A DNA stretch of 38,346 nucleotides, from assembly GCA_029834535.1 (NCBI GenBank), contig JAQMWT010000639.1, positions 1 to 38,346 on the forward strand, given 5' to 3'. Positions 6,735 through 27,253 of the stretch are shown one piece after another. Numbering within the stretch: the first letter of the stretch is position 1; each line of letters begins with the position of its first letter. The DNA is from Chrysophaeum taylorii (Eukaryota; Sar; Pelagophyceae; Pelagomonadales; Pelagomonadaceae). The notes under the pieces are model-generated. The model was not told the DNA's origin. It did no database searches and saw only the letters and a program-made list of their open reading frames with translations. A program made the translations under genes and the position numbers.

Positions 6735-8750
6735 CGTCGCGACTGACGTCGCAAACACATGATCTTGTTCTAGCCATACGCAACGGACCACCTCTGCGCT
6801 TTGAACGGCGTCCCAATGATGGCGTGGGCACTGTGTGGCACCGGCACGTCCAACCCTGGGTAACCCGGAATCTAGGAATGCACACCCTAATGCGGGGAGA
6901 TTCAATTAACCCAACGCGCTCGGTTGCCGAGTTATTTCATGTTGCCCTCAGCCATTCTCGATGAAGAATTCCCACCAAAAGACTTCACATGTCAGCGCGG
7001 CTTCGACAATTGGCCATCGTAAGAGTACATGCCATTGACGTGCGTGCGAGTTGTTCAGAACTCCCAGCTTCAACTCCCGCCGAAATTCGACGCGCGCAAT
7101 AGGCTTCGCACCTTCGAGTGAGTCACGGCTGCGGACTTTAATAGAATCGGCTCAAGTGGGATTGACACGACCAAACTCCTCATATGCACCTCGAATGGTA
7201 GGTAGAATAATGGCGCTACGTGCACTGAGTCGTCAGCAGCCTACAAGTTCAGACTCCTGCAGTGTTCGAGCACATGCAGACCTCGTTAACTTGGCAAAAA
7301 GTAATAGCAAATCTAGCGATCCGATAATTGATCTAAATGACTGAGCAGATATAATAGAGAAAAGAAATAGTTTGGAAATAGATTTCACACCGGACATCGT
7401 CAAGGTGTGACTACTACGGCTTCCTTGCGCGCATATTCAAGCCCATCGTATTGAAAACGTGTCGGACAAATTTGCTCGCAGGAGTCAAATGAGGTGTTCA
7501 CAGCTGCCGGAATTGCTTCGAGCTACTAAGCGAGCACATTCGATGTGTAGGAGGAAGACTGAAGAATCGTCCACACGTCGTCAAGACGCTGGTGCTCAAA
7601 TTTACGCGCGCGTACCAGCGAGAGAGTCATAACGGCTGGGCATATGGCCACGTGCCGGGATATCCGATAACACGCGAGTCGCCGCATCTGAATGACGACA
7701 CAGATCAAACCAGCTTCAACGATTTCGCATCATGAGAGCACGTGCTTTAGAATTCCGTACGCCTTGTTCACGAGCAGAAGCTGCAACTCCCGCAAATCGG
7801 GGGGTCAGGCTTTGCATATCCGAATCAATCGCGCGTTCCAGTTTTGACGCGCGAATCGCCGAGCACACCTAAGCAAGTCCATCACGCGCCGCGTAAAAAG
7901 CTAGAAGTGATGGTTTCAGGTCTCTGGAGTTCGCAGCCCTTAAGCTCAGACTCTTGGAATGCGCGAGCGCGCGCGCTCACTCGTCAACGGCAAACCCGTG
8001 GACTAGCGGCAAATCCAGAGATCCGAGGTGGGATCTGGCACAGCTCATCTGAACGAGCCAAATAAAACAAGCTTGTAGCCTTCGGATTAAATACAAATAC
8101 ACACGGGCGAGTAGAACTTTGCTCTGGCTGACGTCACAAACGGCGACCACAATGGTTTTCCACGACCTATCGTCCACCCATCCGCCGCGTCTGAGTTGAA
8201 CGAGGTGTTCGCAGCTGCTTCGGAGTCGTTTTTAGCAGCTGAGCAATCACGTTAGAGCATAGCTGGAGAACTAGAGAATCAAGCACGCGTGTTCGCCACA
8301 ACATAGTACTCTCTCGAGTTGCAAGCATATCACGATGACCTTCGCCTTTCCGTGGTGAGTCTTAGTGTCCACTAGACAGCTAAAGAAATCAAGGTCTCGG
8401 ATGCCAAATCTGTCTCATTTTCACAGGCTTCCTCGAGCTCGCGCAGGTGCGATTCGAGGTACGCCTCGAACCGTTGGAGTTCGTCAAGAAAGGGAGGCGG
8501 GTTCGTGAGCCGATGTTGGTGTGGGAGTTGCGTTTCGAGCTCAGATCTCGCCCAATGTGTCGTCGCTCGCGACGGTATGAGATTGTCATCAAGGGTGCGA
8601 CTGCGATCCCGACAAATGCCCACCGCCTGAATGCTGCAGGCCGAAGAGCGAAATGTTGTGGGAGAACCAACTCGTGATCTTGCGTGTGTAGACTATCAAT
8701 TTCTAATTCAGGTGTGTTCAGCTCGTCAGATCCAAGCTGTGATCGCTGGA
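6735..8750. repeat. diverged, internally deleted relative of the 12.3-kb unit ('unit 0')
   Basis: From about 7790 to 8690 the sequence aligns with about 16990-17880 of the first full unit, clearly diverged by substitutions and small indels. At about 8690 the match jumps to the sequence near 21040, the end of the unit. A stretch equivalent to about 3.2 kb is missing, including the 255-residue gene. The part 6735-7790 contains short relatives of the dispersed repeat family but no gene I can support; the ORFs at 7051-7344 and elsewhere look fortuitous. Confidence 0.7.
8372..8690 (-). pseudogene. decayed copy of the 172-residue putative membrane-protein gene
   Basis: On the minus strand LPQHFALRPAAF, RRWAFVGIAV and SYRRERR match residues about 71-105 of the protein encoded at 17550-18068. 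The later part (FLDELQRFEA, HLRELE, ACENETDLAS) is found in another frame, so a frameshift separates the two halves. Several substitutions are nonsynonymous, as expected for a decaying duplicate. The similarity stops abruptly near 8690, at the same point as the unit 0 deletion. Confidence 0.6.
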
Positions 8751-8751
8751 T

Positions 8752-11490
8752 CCAAGCTGGGATCGCTGGATTCGCCACTAGTGTGCGGCGCGATTCATGA
8801 CAGTCGCACGCGCGCGCGCACGCGCGCGCACTGTATGTGACTGAACTTGTGGGTTGCGAACTTGGAGAACGTCACGCCATCACTCCAAGCTATTAGCAGA
8901 TGAGCTTAGGCGTCGCTCAGCTCTTCGCATGTATATAAAGACTGTGGTGGATAATTGATAGAATTAAATGCGTTCGGCGCGCGCGCGCGAATCGCTTGAG
9001 TTTGAGCTTTGGGCAGCAAACAGCACACACTTGTTTCTAGGATGCGTGTTCTAGCGACTCGCAATCGTCGAGGTTGAGTTGACATGTGTGGTCATTCGGG
9101 CTCGAGGTCTCCGAGCAGCGTTGTCAGCACCGACCTTTTTTGTAAAAAATAGTTGCACGCACGAGATCGAGAGGATCTGGTTGTGGCGGCAACGTCCGCG
9201 TAGTTCTCTAGTCCCTTGCCTACTTGCTTCAAATGAGTTCGTTCTGTTCCTCGAAACGAACCCGAATGAGCTGCAAACACATTCTTTCGACTCCTACGCG
9301 TAGGTTTGTCGGACGGTCGTTCGCGCGGATGTTCGCGCATGAACTGTAGTGGTCTCAGTTCGAGACGTCAGCCCGGGCGAAGGCGCCTCCACCGCTTGTA
9401 TTATTCTATCTATAGGTTATCGGTTTATTCTTTCAGATGTGTTTAGCCACGCAGATCCAACGATGGATCGTTGGATTTGGCACTAATATCGTCGGCCCGG
9501 TTGTTGATACATGCTACGGGATGGCCGCGCGCGCGAACTACACGTGACTGAGTATTTGAGCTGCGGACTCTCGAGGCGCGAGGCCAATACTCCGAGCTAC
9601 TACTAGATGCGTTCCGAAGGGCCTCGCGTATAATTTGCTCTGCTCTTGAGCTGTCTCTGATTAGTTCCACGCGATTGACTCCACGAATTTCACGCGCGCA
9701 AACTGCGGAAGTAAGAGCTTGAGATTCTGAACGTCTCCCTCACTAGCCTATATTGTGCGATCTTGCGATGCACAGTAGTTGGAGCCGTGTTGGCGTGCGC
9801 GGTGATTCAGACCCGATGTCTTTGCGTGTTAAAGGACTCGACGATCTCTTGTGATGCCCGCGCACAGCACCGCGAATAGCCGACAGCACCAGGTCGTGGT
9901 GACGACGCGTGCGTGGTTCTCTTGTTCGCCCCCCTACTCGTCGAGTGTGTTTGCTCAGTGGATTGATTGCGGTTCTGGCTCTGCTGTGAGCGTTTCGTTT
10001 GAATTTCGCGCGTCTGATTGTCGGACACGTGTTCGCGCGGAAACGGTCGTGGATCAGTTCGAGGCGTCAGCCCGCGAGTATGCGACTCCGCAGTGCGCAT
10101 TCTATGTGCAGGCTATCGGCGTACTTGTTCAGATGTGTCAGCAATTCAGATCCAACCTCCTATCTCTGGATTTGCTATTTTCAGTTCATTAAATCCAGGA
10201 CCTGGTCCGTGCAACCGTTGTGCGCACGCGCGACCACACACTCTAGGAGTCAGATCTTTGGGGCTGAGGACTTCGCATGCAAGACACCATCAATCATGGC
10301 TACTTGGCGATGCGTTTCGCAGTTGTTTCGATGTGTCGAGCTGTTCGGTTGTCTCAAGTCTAGTGCGCGTGATTGACCCGAAACGTGCAGCGCGCACGTG
10401 GTAGTGGCCACGTTGCGAGACTTCAGCCGAGCGTGGAATTTCCACGGTGTGTATTCTATCTGTGGGCTATCCAATTGCTGGTTCACACGCTTCGTTCATT
10501 CAGATCAAACGTCGGATCGCTGGACTTGCCACAAGTGCGACTCGCTGGTTGCCCACGGGTGCAAAATCAATCGGCACAGTCCAGGAGTCTAAACTAATGG
10601 ACCGAGGACTTCGTACACGTGACACCATCAATCGTAGCTACCAAGGCCTGGGAGTTGCTAATACGTCTTCAACTCCTCAGGTGTCTGCAGACTTGTACGG
10701 GCGACTGACTCCAATATTCGAAGCCCGTCACTCTCGGCACACGAACTTGAGCGGATTAGAGCTTGAGGTAGAGACGGGCGCTCACGCACATCCAAACTTG
10801 GTGCTGTCATAGTGCGCAATCGTTGGAGCTGCTTTGGCGCGTGTGGTCATTCAGCCCCAACGTTTCAGAACATTGTCGGGTGGCCGATCATCCCTATTGG
10901 ATGTGCGTGCGAAACTAGAGAGGACAAGATTGTGATGATGTCGGGTGCGTGGTTCTCATGTCCCGCACTTACTCTTCTTTGGTTATAACTCCTCGGTTGT
11001 TTCAAACAATTCCGACCCAGCTGCGAACACCGCGTTCATCGATCGCGTCTCGGATTGTCTGGTGTTTATTGGCAAAAATATTGTCTGGGTCTTTGCTCTT
11101 CACGTCAGCCCGCGGGGTCTTCGCTCGACACGTCAGCCCTTGCGCAAGAAAGCCGCTTCGTGGGACGTCTCTCTTTCTTAAGCTATTGTTGCACATGCTT
11201 AGGTCCTGAATTAAGTGCACGGATTTATTCCAGCCCCAGCTGAACTAATTGACACGTTACGAGATTCGCTCGTCGTGTCGAGAGGCGTGTGGCCGTGCAC
11301 ACTAATTGCGGCAGCGAACAGGGGCGGGCATTATTTCTGTCGGGAAGACCAATTCCTAATCTCGTGCATTCTAATCCCGCAACCGCCTCGGCCAAGCACG
11401 GCCGTTCCGAACAAAGTCTCGTAATCTCAAACTCCCATTTTGACTGTAACGAATGATGCCCTCACCCAGTTGCTTGATCTAGCCGCTCGT
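8752..11490. repeat. gene-poor segment of diverged dispersed repeats (also 21081-23819 and 33410-36148)
   Basis: No convincing gene. Several diverged relatives of one repeat family follow each other here. A recurrent core reads CAGATCC, then GGATCGCTGGATT and GCCAC (near 8722-8790, 9437-9490, 10135-10190, 10495-10545). Another reads CAGCTGCGAACAC (near 9269, 11020, 20900). Further copies, some in inverse orientation, lie near 8000-8060, 8205, 17170-17245 and 17374. Many overlapping ORFs of 60-130 codons in all frames have repeat-like, Arg/Ser-rich translations and are not reported as genes. A TATATAAAG stands at 8932-8940 with no clear gene behind it. Confidence 0.65.
8806..8992. repeat. alternating CG tracts (potential Z-DNA)
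   Basis: Two alternating purine-pyrimidine runs: about 8806-8829 (CACGCGCGCGCG repeated around a CA step) and about 8975-8990 (CGGCGCGCGCGCGCG). Both recur in copies 2 and 3 close to the unit junctions. Such tracts can adopt left-handed DNA and are prone to slippage. Confidence 0.6.
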
Positions 11491-11862
11491 TCATGACACG
11501 AGAGGCTTTTCCGGCCATTTCGCTATCTCCGGCTCCTTGTACCGCCCCGCAATTATCCGTACCAGCCTGTCTGTAGGAACTGTTTTGCCAGCGATCCAAT
11601 AAACTAAAGACTCACTCCGAACAATATATATTAACAAAATATTCAATCGAACCAACCACTGATCAACCAAGTGCGTCTTAGAAGCATCATGACTGTGGTG
11701 TCTACACCACATTTGGCCGCAGGCGCTCAAGCACCGAGTCGGTATACTGCTCTGTATGTACTTCATCAGAACACACACGAGCTCGCGTTAGTACGCACGA
11801 AAACATAGAAGCTTCGTGCGCTCTCGGTCGATCAAGACTACGGTGCGGTGCCGACGAGCGAC
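11491..11862 (+). promoter_or_regulatory. upstream region of the HORMA-domain gene
   Basis: AT-rich patch in otherwise CG-rich DNA, with TATATATT at 11625-11632 and ACAAAATATTC at 11634-11644, about 230 bp before the chosen HORMA start. It is the best TATA-like candidate for that gene; a transcription start cannot be placed. Minus-strand ORFs over this stretch (11491-11778, 11702-11920) show no family features. Equivalent positions are +12,329 and +24,658. Confidence 0.3.
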
Positions 11863-13005
11863 ATGGTCGATGAGATGCTTCGAGCGTCGCGTGGCGAATC
11901 GAGACCCGAACGGTGCACAACGGTGAGCGAGGCGCAGTCGGTCGATATTGTGACCAAGTTCATCGAGCTCACAGTCTACACGATTCTTTACCTGCGCAAG
12001 ATCGTTCCCGAGGAATGCTTCGAAAAAATGGACCTTGGAGGCGGCCACGCGTGTCCGTGTCTCGAGCTCAGCGCGGGCGGGCAAACTGGTGCGAATGCCC
12101 GAGTGATCCAATCGTGGATTTGTCGTGGACTCCGCACAGCAATTGCCATGCGATACCTCAAATCTGCGACGTTTATCATCGCCGACGACCAAGAGTGCTC
12201 TCAGGAGCAGTATACTTTTCGCCTTGCATACCCGTGCAGCGAAAAGATCCAGGTGTCGATGAGCGGACCGCGCGACACTGGACGAGAATTACTCCTGGAC
12301 AGCGCGCCCGTGTTCAAACAACTTCGACAAATATGGCTCGATCTTACACTGCTGACGAGCGGTCTTCCTCTACCCGCCGACGAAGAGCGCCTTGTTACGA
12401 TGAAACTCTCGTACACAAGTATTACGCCGCATGGTTACAACCCGCCCTGCTTTCGCACGTGCGCCGCCGATGCGTTTGACTTCGCCAACTCGGGCCCTGC
12501 TTCGTCCGTCGCTGTTGGAGGAGAAGGGTTGAACGGCGCCTACCACAGCTGCAAGCTGGTGTACAAGGGACCTCAAATAAGTCTGTCGGACTCATTGCGC
12601 GACGGTCAGCCGAACTGGTCCTCGAAAGGCACATCACTCGCCAGCCATTGTTGGCAAACAAACAATAAGACATGCAATTTAGATGAGTGCGCAAGTGCTG
12701 ACAACAACAAAAGCAACAACGACGACGATGGAGACGACGACGAAAAAACGCGTATCTCGGCTGGCCCCGACACCCTAGAGGTCTACGGGCACGCGTCGGA
12801 ATTGAACTCGTCGAGAAAAAGGCCGCGCAGCCTGGCTGGCGAACTGTTGTCACCGCCAGGTTCAACGTGCGTTGAGCACTCGCTAACCGACACTCAAGAC
12901 CCGTATTACCACGTCGTGAGCTCGCAGGATTCACAGGTCACGAAGTACATGCGCTACACCATGTGTCGAGAGCCCATCTCCTTCACACAACCCGACCTCT
13001 GCTGA
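11863..13005 (+). CDS. Hop1/HORMAD-like HORMA-domain meiotic chromosome-axis protein (copy 1)
   Basis: 380 residues, no intron needed. I start at the ATG at 11863; an upstream GTG at 11848 is unlikely in a eukaryote. The HORMA domain spans about residues 20-200: helix with YLRKIVPEECF (43-53), W-[IC]RGL...A-RYLKS (85-101), YTFRLAY (117-123) and LVTMKLSY...YNPPCF (177-197), all hallmark positions of Hop1/ASY1/HORMAD. Hop1-type proteins bind the meiotic chromosome axis, promote double-strand breaks and homologue bias, and are remodelled by Pch2/TRIP13. After the domain come an acidic run (287-293), a basic RKRPR (318-322, possible nuclear signal) and four SQ/TQ sites at 344, 354, 357 and 375, the type of cluster that Mec1/Tel1 kinases phosphorylate in yeast Hop1. 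No zinc finger is visible. Mad2 and Rev7 are excluded by the long tail and by the Hop1-like motifs. Confidence 0.93.
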   Translation: MVDEMLRASRGESRPERCTTVSEAQSVDIVTKFIELTVYTILYLRKIVPEECFEKMDLGGGHACPCLELSAGGQTGANARVIQSWICRGLRTAIAMRYLKSATFIIADDQECSQEQYTFRLAYPCSEKIQVSMSGPRDTGRELLLDSAPVFKQLRQIWLDLTLLTSGLPLPADEERLVTMKLSYTSITPHGYNPPCFRTCAADAFDFANSGPASSVAVGGEGLNGAYHSCKLVYKGPQISLSDSLRDGQPNWSSKGTSLASHCWQTNNKTCNLDECASADNNKSNNDDDGDDDEKTRISAGPDTLEVYGHASELNSSRKRPRSLAGELLSPPGSTCVEHSLTDTQDPYYHVVSSQDSQVTKYMRYTMCREPISFTQPDLC

Positions 13006-13656
13006 CCCTCTGTTCTATGTCGTTGCCTTGCACTACGACGTTGCGCGGGTCTCAAACCCAGACGCTTATGCACTCCCTGATACTGGCGAGCGCGGTACCT
13101 CGCGCAAGATCATCCGATCCGCAGACGAAACTACAATCAGCACGCGCACTGCGCTCCTATCACTCTGCATTCTACCTCCCTCAGTCGCGAATAACCTATT
13201 TCGAGCACGCAACTCACGTTCCCCAACACCTCTGCTAGGTTTGCGCTCGAGGGCAAGCTCTTCGGATATACTTAAATCGCTCGAGTGATCGGGTGCGTAG
13301 AATACGGGAACCTCGCAGGGCCAATCGATGAGTTGCAGGGCTCGGAGTTGCGCGTCACAACTTTGCGTTTGAAAATGAATGTGCTCTCCTGCTATCGACT
13401 TTTGGAGTGTAAATGTGTTGTTCTCGAGATTCAATGACTCAGACACGTGTACCTGTTTCGCGCTCAGACCACCGAGTCATAACCATGAGGGACGCAGGAA
13501 TCATTGCGCTGTGGGTGTGAAGAGCCGAGCATAAACACACTTGCGCGGACTAGAGGGTCGCCGTTTCAGATCCCGCATATCACTCGCAAATTGTGCGCTT
13601 TGCAAGTGTTCTAGATTGCTGCATCTATCTAAAGCTGTGTCTTAATACGTCTTACA
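13006..13656. other. interval between HORMA gene and small ORF
   Basis: 650 bp without a recognisable gene. The longest frame is on the minus strand, 13066-13446 (126 codons, GTG at its 5' end), rich in charged residues, with a DWPCEVPVFYAP segment but no family I recognise. It would converge on the HORMA gene. In copy 3 the beginning of this frame is altered by indels after 38070. It may contain the HORMA 3' UTR. Confidence 0.3.
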
Positions 13657-13944
13657 ATGAGTAAAGCAAGTGCTGCACGTGCGCGTCGCCTGCTACGGTG
13701 CATGAATTTTGACCCCACATCGTTCGAAGACTATGGGAAGTTTGGAGGCGGAGTTGGATCATCACGTGCCCAAGAGAATGAAATTGCTGGTGCTTGCTTC
13801 ATTCGAGAAGATCAACAATGCAAGCAAAACGCACGCGAATCCAATAACGTCACCAAAAGAACCAGACTAGGCGAGTCCAAACGCAACCGCACCGCGCCTC
13901 CGGGTCAGGCCGAGGAGATTACTGGCCTCGACAAACCGAAATGA
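13657..13944 (+). CDS. small basic protein of unknown function (copy 1)
   Basis: 95 codons from an ATG in good eukaryotic context (ACAATGAG). The product starts MSKASAARARRLLRCMNF, contains FDPTSFEDYGKFGGG (about 18-32), and ends in a Lys/Arg/Asn-rich tail with KRTR and SKRNR, which suggests a nuclear or nucleic-acid-binding protein. It could be one exon of a longer gene: its TGA overlaps the ATG of a second short frame (13941-14108). The whole ORF is missing from copy 3. No family recognised. Confidence 0.35.
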   Translation: MSKASAARARRLLRCMNFDPTSFEDYGKFGGGVGSSRAQENEIAGACFIREDQQCKQNARESNNVTKRTRLGESKRNRTAPPGQAEEITGLDKPK

Positions 13945-14108
13945 CCAAGCCGCGCATTGTTGAACACGAGACTCTACAGACCGCGCAGTCACTGACCCAA
14001 CAAGGTAAGCGAGACTCTCCATGCGATTACGACGTTACACCTCAGCTATTCTCACCTTATATTGTCACCATTGACTCTCCCGAAGACCTGTTATCGATGC
14101 CTCGATAG
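13941..14108 (+). CDS. 55-codon ORF, possible downstream exon of the small basic protein
   Basis: Overlaps the stop of the preceding ORF (ATGA). It contains a strong donor-like CAAG|GTAAGC at 14005 and a possible acceptor TTACACCTCAG ending at 14045, which would give a 41-base intron, shorter than the three in the recombinase gene. As read through, the translation ends IDSPEDLLSMPR before TAG. Whether it is an exon, an independent small ORF or chance is open. The copy 2 equivalent is 26270-26437. Confidence 0.2.
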   Translation: MTKPRIVEHETLQTAQSLTQQGKRDSPCDYDVTPQLFSPYIVTIDSPEDLLSMPR

Positions 14109-14321
14109 CCTCTCGCGGCCTCTCGAATTCCCTTGTGTCTCCGATAGTGTCACGGTGATTAGACTACTTAGCTAGACACCCTATGTTAAGGTTGGCAAGA
14201 GGGCGCCAAAAGGGCGCCGTAGTCCTCTTCAATGCCTGTCTCAGCTCGAAGACGTCGCAAGATTTTCGGTGCAGCTCCTCGCGGATATGCACGAGCGCCA
14301 GGATTTCCCCTAAGCAACGCA

Positions 14322-14789
14322 TCAAGGTTGCCTCATCTTGATTTTGAGCGACGGTTCCGCGTACGACACGACGCGCGTGCTTCTCGCGGGTCTATGAGTG
14401 GCTGTGGCGGATAGTGGGTGCGTTTGATGCTCGTTGAGAGAGCTGGGTCTTTCAGACGAGCTGATAGACTCTGATTGCACCATCTTGTTCGAAATCGCGG
14501 CACCCGTGCGCACCTTGAGAAGCTCTCTTGTCAGGGCAGAAATCTGGCGTTCGTATCGAATTCTTTCTAACTTGAGACGCGCGACTTCTGCGGCAAGTTC
14601 CTTGTTGTTCGACCGGAGCGAAGCTAGCCGAATTTCATTCACAGTGGTGGAGGCCGCGGTGAGGTCACGTCGTCGGCGGCGCCGAACGATCATTGGCTGC
14701 AGCCCAGTGTACCAGAGATGCGACGATCTAGTGCTATCGTCAACCAGGAGATGACTATCCGACATGGAAACGGACTGCAACATCAACAA
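14322..14789 (-). CDS. Shugoshin-like protein (copy 1)
   Basis: 155 residues. Residues about 45-94 form a heptad-patterned coiled coil (NEIRLASLRSNN, AAEVARLKLE, RQISALTRELL). The extreme C-terminus, residues 133-155, carries RPARSTR, then VVSYAEPSLKIKMR, which fits the conserved Shugoshin C-terminal basic motif (Arg-rich, then Y-x-x-PSL-x-x-K-[ML]-R). Shugoshin protects centromeric cohesin from separase by recruiting PP2A through the N-terminal coiled coil, and binds phosphorylated H2A through the C-terminal motif. The protein is far shorter than most Shugoshins because the middle is about 40 residues. A six-Arg run (36-41) precedes the coil. It is divergent from the recombinase gene with 136 bp between starts. 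The alternative, a bZIP factor, is disfavoured by the lack of the N-x7-R basic signature. Confidence 0.78.
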   Translation of the reverse strand: MLMLQSVSMSDSHLLVDDSTRSSHLWYTGLQPMIVRRRRRRDLTAASTTVNEIRLASLRSNNKELAAEVARLKLERIRYERQISALTRELLKVRTGAAISNKMVQSESISSSERPSSLNEHQTHPLSATATHRPARSTRVVSYAEPSLKIKMRQP

Positions 14790-14925
14790 ATTACGTGCGT
14801 GTATGCGGCTAGACGTATGTGTAACTCCCAGAATTGGTACAACACTTATACTGCGCTCAAGTACTACAAAGGAGGCATTAACGGCCTAACATCACGAGCG
14901 AGAAAAGGCTGATTGCTCATTAACG
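14790..14925. promoter_or_regulatory. 136-bp divergent promoter region between Shugoshin and recombinase genes (copy 1)
   Basis: The two start codons face away from each other with only 136 bp between them. A shared bidirectional promoter, hence co-expression, is likely. No certain TATA box is seen; TTATACTG (14846-14853) is a weak candidate. Confidence 0.45.
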
Positions 14926-16196
14926 ATGATGGACTTTAACGCGGGAGCCTTGTGCGAGACGGAGCCTGCGACGGCGCGCGCCGAACCTGTTGAGCAGGCC
15001 GATGCCAACAACCGTTTGGTCAACGAAGAAGAAGTGCTCGAAGACGAGGACGACATCGACACGCCCGTCACGTTCCTGCATGTCGAGGACCTCGCCGCCC
15101 ACGGTGCACACGCAGGGGAGATCTCCAAGCTACGGAAGGTGCGCTCTTGTTGGCTTTCTGACTGCTTGCCCGACAGATAGCGCGCAGCGCGGACTGACGA
15201 CTGTTGGGCTCGTTGCAAGCGCGTCGATGCGAGAACTGATCGAAGTGCCAGGGCTTTCGACAGAGCGCGCCGACTTCTTGCGCAAGAAAGCCAAACTGAT
15301 CGACGGTAAGTCCGGCGTCGTCTTCGCCTCGGGTCTGGACCTCGTGCAATCGATGAAGACCAAGATTACGACCGGCAGCGCCGCGCTCGACGCGCTCATC
15401 GGTGAGATTGGACCCGGGGTTGGACGTGTCGACGTCAGTCGAGCTGCTTCAGGTGGTGGCGTTGAGACGAAGACTATCACTGAGGTGTACGGCGACAGCG
15501 GAACGGGCAAGACTCAACTCTGCCACGCGCTGTGCGTGCGGACTCAATTCGCTCGAGACCAAGGTGGCGCCGAGGGCTGCGCGCTGTACATCGACACAGA
15601 TCAGACGTTCCGTCCAGACCGAATCCAGCAGATCGCGGAGGCCGTTGGTTTCGGTGAGGATCGCCGTGATATGCTGTTTCGTCCGAGAGTACCACGGCGC
15701 AGACCCACAGCAAATTCTGGGGAACATTGTCGTGATCAAGGCCACCAGCTTCGATCATCAATGCGAAATCGCAACCGCGGCGACTCGCGTGCTTGCAGAT
15801 CCACCGAGTGGCGAGTTTCGTCTCATCATTGTGGATAATATCATGACCCACCTGCGCGCCGAGTATGCTGGCCGCGGAGAGCTTGCGGCACGACAGCAAG
15901 CCCTTAACAGTCACCTTCGTTGGCTCAAGCAGCTTGCTGACGAGTTCGACTGCGCCGTCGTGGTCACGAATCAGGTCTCCACAGTTCCCGAGGCTTTCGG
16001 CATGGGCGGGGCCACCGTCAAGCCCTGCGGCGGGCCAGTCCTAGCTCATAGCGCCCCGATGCGAATCTGGTTGCGCAAAGGGCGCGCACAGCAAAAAAAG
16101 GCCACGCTTGAGCATTCAGCCTTCATGCCTAAAGGTAGCACTCCTGTGTCTATTTGTCGCGCCGAGACATACACAGGCGCTTGTCGTCCTGTCTGA
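14926..16196 (+). CDS. RadA/DMC1/RAD51-family strand-exchange recombinase, four exons (copy 1)
   Basis: Exons 14926-15138, 15188-15401, 15453-15653 and 15703-16196 total 1122 bases, giving 373 residues and TGA. All three introns (49, 51, 49 bases) are GT-AG, and splicing them restores continuous homology. Residues about 45-109 form the N-terminal helix-hairpin domain (EISKLRK / RGLTTVG, ELIEVPGLS). Then come KITTGS (130-135), GGGVETKTITE (143-153), Walker A GDSGTGKT (156-163), IDTDQTFRPDR, Walker B LIIVD (250-254), GRGELAARQQ (266-275), VVVTNQV (295-301) and GG-VLAHSA-MRIWLRKGR (319-337). The product forms filaments on single-stranded DNA and catalyses homologous pairing in meiosis or repair. 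The polymerisation motif is FASG (117-120) where relatives have F-x-x-A. Several positions (DPQQILGN, HLRAEYAGRG, P-AFG) look more like archaeal RadA than human RAD51 or DMC1. Confidence 0.93.
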
Positions 16197-16445
16197 GACT
16201 TTTTTGAAGCATGCGAGCGCGCGCAGGCGACTGCCTCTTCTCCATAGTAGCTGCAGGGATCGTCGACGCGATTGAAGGAGCTTAAGAGCTTGTCCCTTGC
16301 AATAGAAATAGAATAGACAAGAATGAAGTTTATCGGGCTTTTCCTTGTCGACGTGGCACGTCGCGCTGAATGTCTCGAAGAAGTCGTTCTCGCTCTCGAG
16401 CTCAAAATATCCATCCGTCCAAAGCTTACCGATGTCTAACTTCAT
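16116..16445 (-). CDS. unassigned ORF convergent with the recombinase 3' end
   Basis: 109 codons on the minus strand. It overlaps the last 81 bases of the recombinase gene antiparallel. The first part reads MKLDIGKLWTDGYFELESEN and DFFETFSATCHVDKEKPDK, a plausible folded-protein composition, whereas the distal part over the recombinase exon is Arg/Cys-rich and probably out of frame. ATCG|GTAAGC near the start is a possible splice donor. It could be the first exon of a minus-strand gene or chance. Copy 2 is at 28444-28773. Confidence 0.22.
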   Translation of the reverse strand: MKLDIGKLWTDGYFELESENDFFETFSATCHVDKEKPDKLHSCLFYFYCKGQALKLLQSRRRSLQLLWRRGSRLRALACFKKVSDRTTSACVCLGATNRHRSATFRHEG

Positions 16446-17549
16446 GCCACGATTTCATTGCGCATGTGCGCACACCACGACGATTTTGACCGCGCACACC
16501 AATGACGACGCACAAAAATTGACCGTCGCGGTTTACCCTCGCACCACCGCGCCACACCGCCTCGATATAAGAAACAACCAGTCCGAGTCCCAACTACAAC
16601 TATTTGTCTTGCTGAATGGTGCCGGCCTCTCAGAGACTAACGTCAGCTAGACGAGCGCACGGAATCACAGCTAGCTAGCGCTCAACGAGTTTATCGGTCG
16701 TGGCTAACAGACGTGGGAATATTTTGAGTACGAATTAGACTTCGAGTGTCGCATGTTATCGAAAACTCCATACATGGCGGCACTCACAATGAGCATACGT
16801 CGTCGGGCGTGTGTTCACACACCGCAATGGTAGTGGACTCGGGTCGAGACGTCACCCCGGGCGTAGGCGACTTGGGAGCGTTTAATCTATTTATGGCCTA
16901 TCGATCTACTTGTTCAGACGTGTTTGATCTTGCAGATCCCACTTTGCATCGCTTGATTCAAAACACTAGTCTCCAGCGCCGTAGGCGACAGGCTTTGCAT
17001 GTTCGAATCAGTCGCGCGCTCCAGTCTTGAGACATCCGAAACGCTGAATACACCTAAGCAAGCTCATCTCGCTTCGCCTAAAGAGCTAGAAGTGATGGTG
17101 TCACCACTGGCCCGCAACCCAGGAGTTCAGACTCCTGGTATGCGCGCGCGCACACATGTCAACGGCAAACCCGTGGATTTGTGGCAAATCCAGATATATC
17201 GGAGGTGGGATCTGGCTCAGCTCATCCGAACGAGTCAAATAAAACAGCCCGTAGCCTTCGGATAAAATACACACTGGGAAGTAGCCTTCGCCTTTGCTGA
17301 CGTCGCAAATTGTGAACACAATAGTTTTCAGTGACCTCCTGTCCACCAATCCGCCTCGTCGGAGTTGAACGAGGTGTTCGCAGTTGCTTCGGAATCGCTT
17401 CAAGCAGCTGATAAATCATGCTGAAAGCATTGCTGGAAAACTAGAGAATCAAGCACGCGTCTTCGCCACAACATATATTATCGAATTGCACGCGCACATC
17501 GAAGACATTCGTCTAACCGTGGCGAGTCTTATTCGTGTCGACTAGATAG
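16446..17549. repeat. intergenic segment, dispersed repeats in inverse orientation (copy 2: 28774-29877)
   Basis: No supported gene. 16446-16990 is nondescript apart from an AT patch at about 16710-16735. From about 16990 it matches unit 0 (from about 7790) and carries the dispersed repeat cores on the minus strand: GGCAAATCCAGATAT near 17180 and GTGTTCGCAGTTG near 17374. Overlapping short ORFs on both strands are considered fortuitous. Confidence 0.5.
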
Positions 17550-18068
17550 TTATAGAAAATCAAGGTCTGCGATGTCTGAGCTGACATCGGATGCCAAATC
17601 TGTCTCATTTTCACAGGCTGCCTCGAGCTCGCGCAGGTGCGTTTCGAGGCAAGCCTCGAACCGTTGGAGTTCGTCAAGAAAAGGTGGCGGGGTCTGCTGT
17701 GAGCCGATGTTGGTGTGGTAGTTGCGTGTCGAGCTCAGATCTCGCTCAGTGCATCGCTGCTCGCGACGGTATGAGATTGTCATCAAGAGTGCGACTGCGA
17801 CCCCGATGAATGCCCACCGCCCGAATGCTGCAGGCCGAAGAGCGAAATGTTGCGGGAGAATCGAATCGTGATCTCTCGATGTCGAGGGGGCGTGCCACGT
17901 TGTCGTGGTGTGCTTGGTGGGCCGATGAGGCTGGCTGAATAACCACCGAATGGTCAAAAGCACCCACAAGGTGCGCATTTTGATGCTGAAAGAGTGTATT
18001 GAACTGATTCGGGCCGACCACTGAAATCTCGTGAAAAAAATTGGACTGGAGAATTTCGTGTTGCACAA
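17550..18068 (-). CDS. putative small membrane protein of unknown function (copy 1)
   Basis: 172 residues. One probable transmembrane helix covers residues 82-100 (FGRWAFIGVAVALLMTISY), followed by positive residues RREQR. A second weak hydrophobic stretch is at 31-44, after an internal Met at 31 that may be the real start. The C-terminal 45 residues are helical and acidic (FLDELQRFEACLE, HLRELEAACENE). The part from residue about 71 onward is also present, frameshifted, in unit 0 at 8372-8690. That shows the sequence is old, although it also shows weak constraint. No family recognised, and a role with the neighbouring chromosome proteins is unproven. Confidence 0.4.
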   Translation of the reverse strand: MCNTKFSSPIFFTRFQWSARISSIHSFSIKMRTLWVLLTIRWLFSQPHRPTKHTTTTWHAPSTSRDHDSILPQHFALRPAAFGRWAFIGVAVALLMTISYRREQRCTERDLSSTRNYHTNIGSQQTPPPFLDELQRFEACLETHLRELEAACENETDLASDVSSDIADLDFL

Positions 18069-18440
18069 TACAGACTGAACTTATTATTCTGAACGGATTC
18101 GGGTATTTTTAAACGTCGACTGCTTAATAAAGTGGCAAAGGCGGTGAGACAGCGCGCGAGGGGGTGAGTGAGCTCGAAGGATTCGGGGGATTGTCAAGCG
18201 CTGCCAAAAGTGAGCGAGCCCTCGTAATTTCCCCAGGCTGCAACCCCTGCCTCTCGTGGACAACCACCACGTGACTATCAGAGAGTGACAACTCGTACAA
18301 CGAGTCAACTTGAAGCGAGAGCAGCGTGTAGCTTGTGTTCGCGCAATACGAACTATGGGCCAGCTCAGTACGCGGGGCGTAGGCTAATCCCACGGCCCTA
18401 GCACGCTGGATCAGAATCAGAGAGCGTTTAGACAGGAGGC
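18069..18440. other. short intergenic interval (copy 2: 30397-30768)
   Basis: Begins with TTTTTAAACGTCGACTGCTTAA (18104-18125), a relative of the GTCGACTGCTAAGAGGGG motif. A minus-strand frame of 131 codons (18124-18519) crosses it and reads into the SINE-like fragment. It is Ser/Leu/Pro-rich without recognisable motifs, and I do not support it as a gene. Confidence 0.35.
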
Positions 18441-18600
18441 GTAGAATGGAGAATTTAGTTGAAATTGAGTGCCTGTCGCCATGCGACACGTTTTGGCTGG
18501 AGATCAACTCCGTCGTCACCTTACTTCTTATTTATTTTTTTGCGCCACCCCGTCCCACTGCGAAGTTCCGCCTGCCAACCGTCCGCCCGGGAGGCGAACA
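18440..18600 (-). mobile_element. partial SINE-like element, reverse orientation (copy 1 of unit)
   Basis: The reverse complement of this stretch resembles 6459-6600. Shared blocks include CGCCTCCCGGGCGG, GGTTGGCAG, CGCAGTGGGACGGGG and GTCGCATGGCGACA. Homology fades outside and no target-site duplication or GTTA tail is seen, so this is an older or truncated insertion. Plus-strand ORFs of 70-119 codons over it are translations of the element. Copy 2 lies at 30768-30928. Confidence 0.55.
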
Positions 18601-18712
18601 GGTGCCAACCGGGACGGCGCAAGGCGAGTTCAGAAGGGGCACCATCCTCCATCGCGACCGTGCGTGCGTGAGACCAGGGTCAAAGAGAAAAATCAAAGGG
18701 CATTTGTACGTT

Positions 18713-18960
18713 GGCTGCTACGAGGAGGAGTGCGAGTGTGAGCACGCAGGGCGCTCATTGGTTCGGGAATGTGTGAGTGGCTGGATGAACTCTAAGCGCA
18801 CTTAAATTTTAAGGTGGACTGCTAAGAGGAGGAGTGTGAGCGTGAGTTGTGTTCGGTGGTCAAACTCTAAGGGAATTTCATGGTCGACTGCTAAGAGGGG
18901 GATGCGAACGTGAGCACGAAGGGCGTTCGGTGGTTTTGGGGGTTGTGTGAGGACGTGAGT
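18713..18960 (+). repeat. degenerate minisatellite, about 3 units of 70-100 bp
   Basis: Repeated blocks in the same order: GCTGCTA(A/C)GAGG, GTGTGAGC/GCACG, GGGCG(T/C)TC, GGTGG or GGTTCGG, then AACTCTAAG, with units starting near 18714, 18815 and 18888. The motif GTCGACTGCTAAGAGGGG in the third unit equals the motif at 5374-5391. Copy 2 (31041-31289) has one G more in the run at about 31216. Confidence 0.6.
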
Positions 18961-19272
18961 GGTGCCTGCAAGGCAAATGTATGCCGAGGCCTAGTCGGGG
19001 TCATCGTCGAGCCGCGGGGCAGGCGAAGAAGAGATGAGGGTCCCCGCCCGCACGTTGTGCGCATGCTGCCGCCGGATGTACGTGCGACGGAGTGTGACGT
19101 CCTAAACTCTAAGGGTCGCAGGTGGGGGCGAGAGAAGGAGAGAGGGGTATGCAGAAGTTTCAGAAGTGATGAGGGTAAGAGATAAATTCACAAGATCGTT
19201 GCTTTGAGCAACGGTTTGCTCTACTAACCGATCGATTTTGTCGCAAACTAACGAACGCTCTTGAGAGAAAGA

Positions 19273-20040
19273 ATGAATTCAGACAGCGCCGCGGACGACG
19301 AGATCAGCTTGGGCGATGCTTCGAGCGTGCTGAGTGCTGCAGAGGAACTCGATGATCTCCCGGAAGCGCCGAAGGGCACGGTCGAACAATCTTGCGAGAC
19401 AACGCCATCGCGGGAGCATAATACGGGAGGTTGCGGGGACACCTTCGAGCAGGGACCCGCAGAGCTCTCGCAGGACAGTACCGCCGCAAACTCGAGCCCC
19501 TCGCTGAAGCGAAAGGAAGTTGTGAGATCACAACCTTCGGCAAAGAGGATTGCAGTCGACGAGCCTTCGACACAATTGAGCCGCGCGGCGGAGCTATGGC
19601 GCAGAGAGTGTCAAAGTCAACTTAGCGCGGAGGATGCCAAAGCTGCCTGGTTAGCGCTTGATATCGCAGAACGCGAACGGTTCGAGGCTCGCGTCGAGGT
19701 CTTGCCTTCCCGCCCCATCGCGCGACGAGAGCGATACGGGGTGGCGAAACCACTTCCAAAAATTGTGCCAAAAGTTCGTGGTATTCGCATCCTAGGCGCT
19801 ACGAGACCAGCTCTTCTTGGTCCTGAACTCCCAATTCCCGTGCGAGGAAGAAAGAAGCACGGAAACTCGATCAAATCAAAGTCGGGAAACGATTACTTCA
19901 CCAAGAAGCTCATGGCGAACGGTTGGAGAGTGCAGGCCCAGGGGACCCAAGTCACATTCTGGAGTCCGGGCATCCCGTCGATTGCTTTCTCCTCGTTATC
20001 TCAGATTGCCAAGGCTTTTCCGCACCTGGTCCCCAATTAG
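19273..20040 (+). CDS. 255-residue nuclear-type protein with HMG-like helix and possible MBD-like C-terminus (copy 1)
   Basis: Starts at the first ATG of the frame (context AAAGAATGAA). Residues 1-75 are acidic and low-complexity. KRK (79-81) and KR (91-92) could be a nuclear signal. Residues about 100-141 (LSRAAELWRREC, AAWLALDIAERERFEAR) resemble the C-terminal half of an HMG box (W-x-x-L-x-x-x-ER-x-x-F). A basic linker (150-204) precedes residues 206-252: NDYFTKKLMANGWRV, GTQVTFWSPG, AFSSLSQIAKAFPHL, a GW...F-W-SPG...F-SL pattern reminiscent of methyl-CpG-binding/TAM-type modules. Both domain ideas are weak. A chromatin-associated DNA-binding protein is my best reading. It is the last gene of the unit. 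Confidence 0.6.
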   Translation: MNSDSAADDEISLGDASSVLSAAEELDDLPEAPKGTVEQSCETTPSREHNTGGCGDTFEQGPAELSQDSTAANSSPSLKRKEVVRSQPSAKRIAVDEPSTQLSRAAELWRRECQSQLSAEDAKAAWLALDIAERERFEARVEVLPSRPIARRERYGVAKPLPKIVPKVRGIRILGATRPALLGPELPIPVRGRKKHGNSIKSKSGNDYFTKKLMANGWRVQAQGTQVTFWSPGIPSIAFSSLSQIAKAFPHLVPN

Positions 20041-21080
20041 TTTATGCATCAATGTGCCTTCGCGTCCTAAATGCATCTGGGCGGACGAAACCTCCGCGAA
20101 GCCCCTAATAGCTACGCCCTCCCGCAGCTCATTGCGCTATTTTATGTGTCTTGCGCTAGATAGGAGCACGCTGTGCGCCGGAATGCTTCGTATTACTCCC
20201 GAGCCAAGTCCTCGCGCCCCAACATAGCTCGAGACTCCCTTAGAATAACATAATAAAACGTGTAGCACCTCGCCGTCGCTCGTGAGACAAAGAACTGAAC
20301 TGTGCTGCTCCTAGCCTCGGCTACTAAGGGCGACCTGCGTCCACATCCCGCGCACGGGCGACTTTATGAAATGTCGTTTAAAGCATCGAGCACAGTCCAA
20401 AGAGCACGACGTGACACTCGCACAAACAAGCAGATAGGAACGGGTAGTTGTAAGCAGAAGCCAAGACTCCTGGGCTGCGGACTTGGCATACGAGACGCCG
20501 GAACTCCTTGCCCCTAGACGATGCTCTTAAAGTTTCCAAGACATGCTCTGCTTTCGTATGCATCTTAACACTTCTGTGCGATTTCTCTTTACGTCCGAAG
20601 CCCCGCACATCGCAAACCAGCTGCAGGAGTTGGGCAGGAGTTGGAGCTAGGAGATTTCAACGACGCACGCAATTCTGCAGTATTGCTCCAAGGATTCGAA
20701 ATCGTTGGACTTGCTTTTATATGGGTGGTCATTCAGTTTCGAAGTCTCCGCGCATTGTCACTTCAAACCGTCTCCGCGGAACCGCGCGCGGGGTCGAGAG
20801 TTCTGCGTTGTGGCGACGACGTGTGGGTTATTCATTCTCGGGTCATCCCATATCGCTTCAAGAGTCTTCGCTCGGATGCTCGAAACGACCCCGACTCAGC
20901 TGCGAACACGGGGTTCGACTTTCGCATACGACTGGCTGTCGCTAGCGTTTGCGCGCGGCAAACTCAAGAGGTCTCAGTTTCTCAGTTCGAGACGTCAACC
21001 CGAAGGTATGCGACTCCACGACGTGTACATTATGTGTGTAGGCTGTCAGTTTCTTTATTTACGTGTTCCGCTCTCCAGAT
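20041..21080. repeat. 3' flank of the 255-residue gene and dispersed repeats (copy 2: 32370-33409)
   Basis: The first 250 bp are probably the 3' UTR. After about 20650 the sequence consists of plus-oriented members of the dispersed repeat family (GTGGTCATTCAG near 20726, CAGCTGCGAACAC near 20900, CTGGGATCGCTGGATTCGCC near 21083) leading straight into the next unit. ORFs of 60-162 codons here lack family features and follow the repeat. Confidence 0.5.
20252..20257 (+). terminator. candidate polyadenylation signal AATAAA (copy 2: 32581-32586)
   Basis: AATAAA lies 212 bp after the stop of the 255-residue gene, in the only AT-rich patch of this flank (AGAATAACATAATAAAACG). It is the expected hexamer for mRNA 3' end formation, though not proof. 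Confidence 0.35.
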
Positions 21081-24000
21081 CCTAGCTGGGATCGCTGGAT
21101 TCGCCACTAGTGTGCGGCGCGATTCATGACAGTCCCACGCGCGCGCGCACGCGCGCGCACTGTATGTGACTGAACTTGTGGGTTGCGAACTTGGAGAACG
21201 TCACGCCATCACTCCAAGCTATTAGCAGATGAGCTTAGGCGTCGCTCAGCTCTTCGCATGTATATAAAGACTGTGGTGGATAATTGATAGAATTAAATGC
21301 GTTCGGCGCGCGCGCGCGAATCGCTTGAGTTTGAGCTTTGGGCAGCAAACAGCACACACTTGTTTCTAGGATCCGTGTTCTAGCGACTCGCAATCGTCGA
21401 GGTTGAGTTGACATGTGTGGTCATTCGGGCTCGAGGTCTCTGAGCAGCGTTGTCAGCACCGACCTTTTTTGTAAAAAATAGTTGCGCGCACGAGATCGAG
21501 AGGATCTGGTTGTGGCGGCAACGTCCGCGTAGTTCTCTAGTCCCTTGCCTACTTGCTTCAAATGAGTTCGTTCTGTTCCTCGAAACGAACCCGAATGAGC
21601 TGCGAACACATTCTTTCGACTCCTACGCGTAGGTTTGTCGGACGGTCGTTCGCGCGGATGTTCGCGCATGAACTGTAGTGGTCTCAGTTCGAGACGTCAG
21701 CCCGGGCGAAGGCGCCTCCACCGCTTGTATTATTCTATCTATAGGTTATCGGTTTATTCTTTCAGATGTGTTTAGCCACGCAGATCCAACGATGGATCGT
21801 TGGATTTGGCACTAATATCGTCGGCCCGGTTGTTGATACATGCTACGGGATGGCCGCGCGCGCGAACTACACGTGACTGAGTATTTGAGCTGCGGACTCT
21901 CGAGGCGCGAGGCCAATACTCCGAGCTACTACTAGATGCGTTCCGAAGGGCCTCGCGTATAATTTGCTCTGCTCTTGAGCTGTCTCTGATTAGTTCCACG
22001 CGATTGACTCCACGAATTTCACGCGCGCAAACTGCGGAAGTAAGAGCTTGAGATTCTGAACGTCTCCCTCACTAGCCTATATTGTGCGATCTTGCGATGC
22101 ACAGTAGTTGGAGCCGTGTTGGCGTGCGCGGTGATTCAGACCCGATGTCTTTGCGTGTTAAAGGACTCGACGATCTCTTGTGATGCCCGCGCACAGCACC
22201 GCGAATAGCCGACAGCACCAGGTCGTGGTGACGACGCGTGCGTGGTTCTCTTGTTCGCCCCCCTACTCGTCGAGTGTGTTTGCTCAGTGGATTGATTGCG
22301 GTTCTGGCTCTGCTGTGAGCGTTTCGTTTGAATTTCGCGCGTCTGATTGTCGGACACGTGTTCGCGCGGAAACGGTCGTGGATCAGTTCGAGGCGTCAGC
22401 CCGCGAGTATGCGACTCCGCAGTGCGCATTCTATGTGCAGGCTATCGGCGTACTTGTTCAGATGTGTCAGCAATTCAGATCCAACCTCCTATCTCTGGAT
22501 TTGCTATTTTCAGTTCATTAAATCCAGGACCTGGTCCGTGCAACCGTTGTGCGCACGCGCGACCACACACTCTAGGAGTCAGATCTTTGGGGCTGAGGAC
22601 TTCGCATGCAAGACACCATCAATCATGGCTACTTGGCGATGCGTTTCGCAGTTGTTTCGATGTGTCGAGCTGTTCGGTTGTCTCAAGTCTAGTGCGCGTG
22701 ATTGACCCGAAACGTGCAGCGCGCACGTGGTAGTGGCCACGTTGCGAGACTTCAGCCGAGCGTGGAATTTCCACGGTGTGTATTCTATCTGTGGGCTATC
22801 CAATTGCTGGTTCACACGCTTCGTTCATTCAGATCAAACGTCGGATCGCTGGACTTGCCACAAGTGCGACTCGCTGGTTGCCCACGGGTGCAAAATCAAT
22901 CGGCACAGTCCAGGAGTCTAAACTAATGGACCGAGGACTTCGTACACGTGACACCATCAATCGTAGCTACCAAGGCCTGGGAGTTGCTAATACGTCTTCA
23001 ACTCCTCAGGTGTCTGCAGACTTGTACGGGCGACTGACTCCAATATTCGAAGCCCGTCACTCTCGGCACACGAACTTGAGCGGATTAGAGCTTGAGGTAG
23101 AGACGGGCGCTCACGCACATCCAAACTTGGTGCTGTCATAGTGCGCAATCGTTGGAGCTGCTTTGGCGCGTGTGGTCATTCAGCCCCAACGTTTCAGAAC
23201 ATTGTCGGGTGGCCGATCATCCCTATTGGATGTGCGTGCGAAACTAGAGAGGACAAGATTGTGATGATGTCGGGTGCGTGGTTCTCATGTCCCGCACTTA
23301 CTCTTCTTTGGTTATAACTCCTCGGTTGTTTCAAACAATTCCGACCCAGCTGCGAACACCGCGTTCATCGATCGCGTCTCGGATTGTCTGGTGTTTATTG
23401 GCAAAAATATTGTCTGGGTCTTTGCTCTTCACGTCAGCCCGCGGGGTCTTCGCTCGACACGTCAGCCCTTGCGCAAGAAAGCCGCTTCGTGGGACGTCTC
23501 TCTTTCTTAAGCTATTGTTGCACATGCTTAGGTCCTGAATTAAGTGCACGGATTTATTCCAGCCCCAGCTGAACTAATTGACACGTTACGAGATTCGCTC
23601 GTCGTGTCGAGAGGCGTGTGGCCGTGCACACTAATTGCGGCAGCGAACAGGGGCGGGCATTATTTCTGTCGGGAAGACCAATTCCTAATCTCGTGCATTC
23701 TAATCCCGCAACCGCCTCGGCCAAGCACGGCCGTTCCGAACAAAGTCTCGTAATCTCAAACTCCCATTTTGACTGTAACGAATGATGCCCTCACCCAGTT
23801 GCTTGATCTAGCCGCTCGTTCATGACACGAGAGGCTTTTCCGGCCATTTCGCTATCTCCGGCTCCTTGTACCGCCCCGCAATTATCCGTACCAGCCTGTC
23901 TGTAGGAACTGTTTTGCCAGCGATCCAATAAACTAAAGACTCACTCCGAACAATATATATTAACAAAATATTCAATCGAACCAACCACTGATCAACCAAG

Positions 24001-24191
24001 TGCGTCTTAGAAGCATCATGACTGTGGTGTCTACACCACATTTGGCCGCAGGCGCTCAAGCACCGAGTCGGTATACTGCTCTGTATGTACTTCATCAGAA
24101 CACACACGAGCTCGCGTTAGTACGCACGAAAACATAGAAGCTTCGTGCGCTCTCGGTCGATCAAGACTACGGTGCGGTGCCGACGAGCGAC

Positions 24192-27117: not shown

Positions 27118-27253
27118 ATTACGTGCGTGTATGCGGCTAGACGTATGTGTAACTCCCAGAATTGGTACAACACTTATACTGCGCTCAAGTACTACAAAGG
27201 AGGCATTAACGGCCTAACATCACGAGCGAGAAAAGGCTGATTGCTCATTAACG
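27118..27253. promoter_or_regulatory. divergent promoter region between Shugoshin and recombinase genes (copy 2)
   Basis: Same 136-bp head-to-head spacing and sequence as at 14790-14925. Confidence 0.45.

Follow-up and report, generated by a model that had tools for sequence, protein, structure and literature searches.

Meiotic genes are usually scattered across eukaryotic genomes. Among the proteins that concern us here, Hop1 carries in its tail an SQ/TQ cluster that is phosphorylated by Mec1/ATM, and the N-terminal coiled coil of Shugoshin recruits PP2A. Within the ochrophytes, Pelagomonas is reported in the consulted part of one study to have DMC1, RAD51, HOP2, and MND1 (PMC9481584), and another, in the part consulted, recovered neither HOP1 nor DMC1 from the diatoms that it surveyed (PMC4647503); the same parts of these two toolkit studies do not mention physical clustering of meiotic genes. 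The term "meiotic gene cluster," where it appears in the consulted part of PMC2944786, denotes expression clusters, and a literature search judged on titles and the beginnings of abstracts returned no description that we recognized of a linked HORMA/Shugoshin/recombinase cluster. We describe such a linkage in Chrysophaeum taylorii.

The window, that is, the whole stretch of 38,346 nucleotides analyzed on contig C639, contains a 12,329-bp unit in approximately 2.4 copies that are 99.9% identical by self-alignment. Unit 1 (8749..21077, + strand) and unit 2 (21078..33406, +) are followed by a partial unit 3 (33407..38140, +) that runs through the HORMA gene and gives way to an error-rich contig end (38141-38346). 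Unit 1 comprises, in order, a spacer, a HORMA gene, a small open reading frame (ORF), a shugoshin (SGO) gene, a recombinase gene, and a 255-aa ORF. The spacer is noncoding and consists of degenerate repeats of about 700 bp (8749..11230), and when positions 8760-11230 were used as the query, in a search that recovered their own place, the assembly was matched only at the two loci that hold the cluster. The first-pass annotation had assigned three closely linked frames to the HORMA, Shugoshin, and RAD51/DMC1/RadA families, and these assignments are borne out by profile searches, in which HORMA (PF02301, 1e-26), Shugoshin_C (PF07557, 6e-9), and Rad51 (PF08423) all exceed their cut-offs within 4.4 kb. 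That annotation made no mention of the tandem repetition of the whole unit or of the diverged second array on contig C548. The open copies on C639 number three for HORMA, two for SGO, and two for the recombinase, with one protein sequence per set.

The HORMA gene of unit 1 (11863..13005, +) encodes a 380-aa protein of the Hop1/HORMAD type in a single exon (PF02301, 1.2e-26; 94 bits against a cut-off of 24), and identical proteins are encoded in unit 2 (24192..25334, +) and unit 3 (36521..37663, +); the C548 copy matches the same profile at 2.8e-27. Among PDB sequences HORMAD1 is the sole match at E <= 0.001 (3.4e-5), and MAD2 and REV7 are more distant from the protein than HORMAD/Hop1 is; the assembly's own MAD2 and REV7 each match their own type. 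Two SQ dipeptides in the C-terminus are kept in 5/5 and 4/5 aligned sequences, respectively, a raw count that includes two sequences from this genome. The structure model is too weak to draw on (mean pLDDT 38.6). The likeness to HOP1/HORMAD1/ASY1 consists of the HORMA domain, the HORMAD1 match, and the SQ dipeptides of the tail, whereas the cluster protein differs in its length of 380 aa, its single exon, its tandem amplification, and its location beside an SGO and a recombinase gene.

The shugoshin gene lies at 14322..14693 on the - strand (PF07557, 6.4e-9) and encodes 123 aa from the start that is common to both loci; in this copy an ATG further out, at 14765, is in the same open frame and would give a possible 147-aa form, and an identical copy is found in unit 2 (26650-27021, -). 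The basic motif of Shugoshin_C scores 35.9 bits against a cut-off of 23.3 (38.3 bits in the C548 copy). Coiled-coil profiles match weakly and below their cut-offs, and the stretch that precedes the motif is coiled-coil-like and resembles by eye that of a further SGO candidate on contig C57 (ISALTREL/ISALTRDL). The similarity to known Shugoshin resides in the C-terminal basic motif and this upstream stretch, whereas the cluster protein is very small (123-147 aa) and is accompanied in the assembly by the second SGO candidate. Between the shugoshin gene (-) and the recombinase gene (+) is a divergent intergenic stretch (14694..14928), which, given the orientation of the two genes, is possibly a shared promoter; it is poorly conserved between loci, most 60-column segments giving about 0.53-0.63.

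The recombinase gene (14929..16285, +) is predicted to encode a 376-aa protein of the RAD51/DMC1/RadA type in five exons (14929-15138, 15188-15401, 15453-15653, 15688-16134, and 16227-16285), and unit 2 encodes an identical protein (27257..28613, +). This splice model, with its four short predicted introns, was guided by a relative (P0005) and is open at both loci; a TGA in the six-frame match on C548 is placed by the model inside intron 3. The core domain recognized in the first-pass annotation is recovered by PF08423 on two open frames (90.5 and 129.2 bits; cut-off 22), whereas the single frame ending at 16196 gives way to the five-exon gene ending at 16285. Walker A and B, a RecA core, and an N-terminal domain that we take, from alignment and recall, to be helix-hairpin-helix-like are all present. 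The top PDB match is yeast DMC1 (1.7e-71, obtained with a query whose superseded C-terminus lies outside the matched stretch). The protein scores 288.9 bits with the DMC1 equivalog model and 274.7 bits with the RAD51 model, below the respective cut-offs of 447.7 and 478. With the archaeal RadA models it scores slightly higher than with DMC1 for NF003301 (295.4 bits, above the cut-off of 259, which the assembly's RAD51 also exceeds at 340.7) and 286.8 bits for TIGR02236, below the cut-off of 361.15. Identity to seven reference rows is 40-47%, and in the tree the recombinase and P0007 form a long-branch clade of their own outside the RAD51 clade, with the deeper forks open. In its N-terminus, Walker motifs, core domain, and top PDB match the protein resembles DMC1/RAD51/RadA, whereas the long-branch clade and the scores under both model cut-offs set it apart from DMC1 and RAD51. 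We consider that it fits the DMC1 slot, although it falls below the DMC1 model cut-off and the tree gives it no firm position.

Further members of the unit had been suspected, and these fared differently. The small basic ORF of 95 aa (13657..13944, +; unit 2 copy 25986-26273) is open in both C639 units and in the C548 copy read, to which it is 73% identical with a dN/dS of 0.30, and this conservation at a second locus supports its membership; a Pfam search of it gave no match. The 255-aa ORF (19273..20040, +; unit 2 copy 31602-32369) is likewise open in both units, and a counterpart at C548:58839 is 75% identical (dN/dS 0.43), single, and outside the repeated unit. Its membership is thus upheld, but the description of its product as chromatin-like is not, as Pfam gave no match above the cut-off and Foldseek, run on a low-confidence model (pLDDT 52.8), none at E <= 0.001. 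Membership of the putative membrane ORF (17550-18068) is not supported: stop codons interrupt its C548 counterpart in the frames that were read, although introns may account for them.

The cluster recurs on contig C548, where the 9-kb unit that holds it is present in two tandem copies; gene order and strands match those of C639. Its open copies comprise two HORMA, two SGO, and two recombinase genes (the last with a 1-residue difference), and there is one truncated HORMA copy; at both loci the frames of the HORMA gene, the 95-aa ORF, SGO, the recombinase, and the 255-aa ORF are open. With gaps counted as differences and 13021-13439 outside the alignment, identity between the loci is 88% for HORMA, 89% for SGO, 83% for the 95-aa ORF, and 92.5% for the recombinase exons, as compared with 63% for intergenic DNA (1,611 columns); the short introns, at 81%, lie between the exon and intergenic values. 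Across the five genes dN/dS ranges from about 0.09 to 0.43 (HORMA 0.26, SGO 0.33, recombinase 0.085), and dS is about 0.25-0.46. The open copies at two loci, the higher conservation of exons than of intergenic DNA, and the dN/dS values together argue for an old, selected unit rather than chance frames. A contaminant origin of the contigs is not favored; in the frames read, the C548 flanks resemble ordinary genes styled like those of other contigs, and C639 has Ty3-type elements in common with many contigs.

As the first-pass annotation had suggested, the 70.8-Mb assembly was searched for other HOP1, SGO, DMC1, and RAD51 genes, and one RAD51 and the further SGO candidate on C57 were obtained, although six-frame searches may miss intron-rich genes. 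These domain searches of the assembly gave no other Hop1-type HORMA protein, the two other HORMA genes being MAD2 (2.9e-61) and REV7 (1.6e-31), and no other recombinase of RAD51/DMC1-core score except one ordinary RAD51 on C498 (495.6 bits, above its cut-off of 478). MND1 and HOP2-like domains are present, and two domain searches for the SPO11 family gave a single protein, which we read as the TOP6A type. RAD51, MAD2, REV7, the C57 SGO, MND1, and TOP6A each gave one place (6/6).

Outside this genome, relatives of the HORMA protein and of the recombinase sit on Logan contigs that differ in length, and in Logan no relative was obtained with SGO as the query. A viral or phage origin was considered and rejected: two HORMA searches of viral contigs gave no relative (no pattern match in one; 84 pattern matches in the other, 0 confirmed). 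In PHROGs, SGO weakly matches three families whose function is unknown (0.013-0.04), and four other proteins, the recombinase not being among those searched, have none.

Among the explanations offered by the first-pass annotation, we favor, at somewhat better than even chances, a lineage-specific meiosis cluster, copied to a second locus before being tandemly amplified at both. One short unit would join an axis protein of the Hop1 type, a second shugoshin, a divergent recombinase in the DMC1 slot, and two unnamed ORFs, and its genes would be expressed in meiotic prophase. Building the axis and directing break repair toward the homologue would fall to the HORMA protein, the recombinase would perform interhomologue strand exchange alongside RAD51 with HOP2-MND1, and the small cluster shugoshin would protect centromeric cohesion, with the C57 SGO serving mitosis. 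Close linkage and the putative divergent SGO-recombinase promoter could lead to co-expression of the set, and the arrays could provide a higher gene dosage. The missed DMC1 cut-off, the slightly higher score with one archaeal RadA model, the lack of a firm position in the tree, the finding of SPO11 only as what we read as the TOP6A type, the differing contigs of the HORMA and recombinase relatives elsewhere, and the fair conservation of the introns are points against a meiosis cluster. A bolder version, which we consider unlikely, is that the cluster is a recombination-cold amplified block in two diverged versions, in which the trio and two partner ORFs are inherited together and which would act as a sex- or mating-type-linked meiosis switch or as a dosage-selected, operon-like unit. 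To our knowledge, no eukaryote has yet been found with a unit of this kind. More generally, a compact, selected, and amplified cluster would offer a natural test of whether joint regulation or joint inheritance of the axis, strand exchange, and cohesion steps is possible. It would also bear on why meiotic gene dosage might rise and on whether, in a little-studied protist, linkage of these genes points to a locus related to sex, and it would suggest that a recombinase distant from known DMC1 can occupy the DMC1 slot.

The lineage-specific cluster has to be weighed against readings in which linkage has no meiotic purpose or a different one. Three ordinary genes could have become neighbors by chance and been co-duplicated, with independent meiotic roles and no cluster-level function; each protein is of a known type, there is no sign of co-regulation, and the intergenic DNA is poorly conserved, including the SGO-recombinase stretch (about 53-63%). 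Nevertheless, gene order was kept after the duplication while the spacers diverged, and, were genes placed uniformly, three named ones would fall within 4.4 kb of 70.8 Mb with a probability of about 1e-8, or of about 5e-5 once all triples of a 30-gene toolkit are counted; both figures were calculated post hoc. We regard fortuitous linkage as doubtful. Distinctly improbable in our view is a sex- or mating-type-like locus of which C639 and C548 are diverged haplotypes, that is, one low-recombination region with meiotic genes. Consistent with it are the two cluster versions at a dS of about 0.3, as against the single place of all six comparison genes, a related membrane-ORF region shared by the left flanks of both contigs, a GC trough at 56-84 kb of C548 (0.52-0.58 in 2-kb bins vs. 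0.57-0.72 outside), and a lower GC3 in the cluster (0.60-0.73 in 6 sequences vs. 0.68-0.91 in 12 others); however, the same genes at both loci imply no sex-specific content, and low GC also occurs elsewhere (0.53 in the C57 region).

Near-identical tandem copies at two loci, with meiotic-type genes and a repetitive spacer confined to them, might also be expected of a selfish element that amplifies a cassette and drives its own transmission through meiosis, but purifying selection, the restriction to two loci, and the fact that no Hop1-type or DMC1-slot gene was found outside the cassette, which looks like host function, make this very improbable. The mobile cassette entertained in the first-pass annotation is similarly disfavored, as only two loci were found and the 270-bp repeats around the cassette are not terminal repeats of the locus. 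A giant transposon bounded by inverted copies of these repeats, for which terminal inverted repeats and many insertion sites would be expected, was rejected: they are dispersed and retroposon-like, and the window copy has its own 13-bp target duplication. The dispersed-repeat search used an 11-kb query and scored 30 of 4547 candidates, so that its counts are lower bounds, as is the number of contigs, already many, with which C639 shares Ty3-type elements; searches with parts of this query, which gave the two-locus result, recovered their own places. Finally, the tandem copy number could be an assembly artefact even if the linkage is real, a suggestion that is compatible with the other readings, is judged separately from them, and seems to us improbable. 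Only eight sites distinguish unit 1 from unit 2 on C639, and the end of that contig appears unpolished, but between the C548 array copies there are 51 mismatches over 12 kb (99.5% identity), which is above the expectation for an assembly loop.

Profile searches confirm the three identities that the first-pass annotation had read from the sequence: the HORMA domain reaches 94 bits and Shugoshin_C 35.9 bits, and two open frames score 90.5 and 129.2 bits for Rad51; each value exceeds its Pfam cut-off. Once four introns (49, 51, 34 and 92 bases) are taken out, the recombinase is a single protein of 376 amino acids; this predicted splice model was fitted by us, and its last exon was located via the relative P0005, whose frame has the expected C-terminus. 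Carried to C548, a second contig of the same assembly (70.8 Mb, 697 contigs; eukaryotic, judged from its genes), the model yields a 376-aa recombinase with identical intron positions in both copies there. The shugoshin gene (SGO) lies on the minus strand, divergent to the recombinase gene.

The cluster is tandemly amplified at both loci. In the window (contig C639, 38,346 bp), self-alignment reveals a period of 12,329 bp: the stretch 8749-21077 is followed by a second unit, 21078-33406, and a partial third, 33407-38140, at 99.9% identity. Only eight sites distinguish unit 1 from unit 2. Because this unit is repeated, the window holds three full HORMA genes, two SGO and two recombinase genes (one identical protein per set), and has the 95-aa and 255-aa ORFs twice each. 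At the contig end, 38141-38346, the sequence skips from what corresponds to 13482 straight to the counterpart of 13980, contains indel-type errors and looks like unpolished read sequence. Since the copies are nearly identical and this end is unpolished, the copy number on C639 may be imprecise. The spacer (8749-11230 and 20640-21077) consists of degenerate repeats of about 700 bp, 60-80% alike; in a DNA search its part 8760-11230 has matches at the two cluster loci only. A search with 11240-16940 gave 12 matches: one, 47 bases long, falls on C672 and the other 11 on the two cluster contigs, C639 and C548. On C548 the unit measures about 8,988 bp (60138-69125, 69126-78112 and a partial copy to 81087, in which the HORMA gene is truncated); across 11,966 aligned columns its copies show 51 mismatches (99.5% identity). 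A single 255-aa gene lies left of this array at 58839, and the frames flanking the array, read by eye, resemble ordinary genes.

Comparison of C639 with C548 (Nei-Gojobori with Jukes-Cantor) gives a dS of 0.25-0.46 across the cluster genes. Amino-acid identity and dN/dS come to 95% and 0.085 for the recombinase; the other genes are HORMA (84%, 0.26), the 95-aa ORF (73%, 0.30, on few changes, about 50), SGO (87%, 0.33, on about 41 changes, likewise few) and the 255-aa ORF (75%, 0.43). Over the two aligned blocks, 11240-13020 and 13440-16330, nucleotide identity is 92.5% in the recombinase exons, 89% in SGO, 88% in HORMA and 83% in the 95-aa ORF, with 81% in the recombinase introns and 63% in intergenic sequence. 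The putative membrane protein, earlier proposed as a possible further member, has a C548 counterpart that is broken in the frames read, and we have left it out of the cluster. The C639 and C548 versions are either paralogues or diverged haplotypes; RAD51, MAD2, REV7, MND1, TOP6A and an SGO candidate on C57 each matched at a single place, a result that says no more than that the assembly is haploid or collapsed.

We also searched the assembly for other meiotic genes, in six frames without splicing, so that genes can be missed. The HORMA search returned seven matches: five cluster copies, MAD2 on C348 (2.9e-61) and REV7/MAD2B on C54 (1.6e-31). Eight of the 12 Rad51 matches are cluster exons; the others are RAD51 on C498 (495.6 bits against a cut-off of 478), a distant paralogue on C36 with about 105 bits under the RAD51 and DMC1 models alike, and matches of just 74 and 35 bits on C309 and C149. 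Thus the sole Hop1-type gene and the sole non-RAD51 recombinase of core-like score that these searches detected belong to the cluster. The SGO search (E <= 10) gave seven matches, five of them above the cut-off, namely four cluster copies and the C57 candidate, which on its own open frame scores 21.6 bits, slightly below the cut-off, and by eye retains the motif and a coiled-coil-like stretch. MND1 was located on C487 and HOP2-like domains on C581 and C78. The only SPO11-family Toprim match in the assembly, C52:109257-110099, is a protein that we take to be of the TOP6A type; two domain searches found no further SPO11-like domain above cut-off, the N-domain search adding one sub-cut-off match of 17 bits. 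This contrasts with the presence of MND1 and HOP2-like domains.

The closest PDB relative of the recombinase is yeast DMC1 (1.7e-71), then RAD51 (2.4e-64); the query carried an earlier version of the C-terminus, and the matched stretch stops before it. Under NCBIfam models it scores 295 and 287 bits with RadA, 289 with DMC1 and 275 with RAD51, below the DMC1 (448) and RAD51 (478) cut-offs; it exceeds one of two RadA cut-offs (259), as does the assembly's own RAD51. In a tree of 10 rows, with several reference rows partial and three short relatives aligned but excluded, the recombinase forms a pair with its relative P0007 (support 100/100); their branch is long and lies outside the RAD51 clade, and the tree leaves the deeper forks open. 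Given these scores and this placement, we assign it, as a divergent RAD51/DMC1/RadA-family member, to the DMC1 slot, but do not regard it as proven to be DMC1. The FxxA motif mediates polymerisation; the stretch before the core, in exon 2, reads FASG at both loci, FTTA in human RAD51 and FKSG in P0007.

Relatives in other sequence collections comprise four for a recombinase exon (53-71% identity, threshold 1e-30) and three for HORMA (43-45%, all on Logan contigs); for SGO, none of 300 candidates reached E <= 0.001. The contigs behind the recombinase relatives and those behind the HORMA relatives have different lengths, so the genes may or may not be linked elsewhere. In the HORMA C-terminus (about 12900-13002), the tail VSSQDSQ ... 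REPxxFT is conserved across all five sequences of the alignment and is a candidate for a closure or phosphorylation motif. In a literature search at the level of titles and the starts of abstracts, with subscription papers mostly outside its scope, we found no description of such a cluster.

Hop1-type proteins form the axis and bias repair toward the homologue, strand exchange is carried out by DMC1 with HOP2-MND1, and shugoshin guards cohesin at the centromere. The anatomy of the cluster, with its tight spacing, divergent SGO-recombinase pair and amplification, suggests that co-expression and dosage may be involved. On C548, GC in 2-kb bins falls to 0.52-0.58 over the cluster locus at 56-84 kb (56000-84000), against 0.57-0.72 outside, and GC3 is 0.60-0.73 in 6 cluster sequences versus 0.68-0.91 in 12 others, with overlapping ranges. 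This trough and the lower GC3 would fit low recombination, but low GC is present elsewhere in the assembly too, beyond the cluster locus. The low-GC centromeres of Pelagomonas are argued to reflect low recombination (PMC9481584).

Several repeats lie nearby. At 1-4526 is a Ty3/gypsy-like element with reverse transcriptase and integrase-like frames recognized by eye, its DNA recurring on at least 16 other contigs at 96-99% (best 30 of 4547 candidates scored). A dispersed retroposon-like repeat of about 270 bp with a TTAG-type tail occurs at 6457-6731, where it has a 13-bp target duplication, at C548:52625-52907 and 83168-83450, and on at least four other contigs; the inverted copies flanking the C548 locus are probably there by chance. 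Directly left of the window array, 7806-8680 is an older copy of the membrane-ORF region, 81% identical to 16989-17874.
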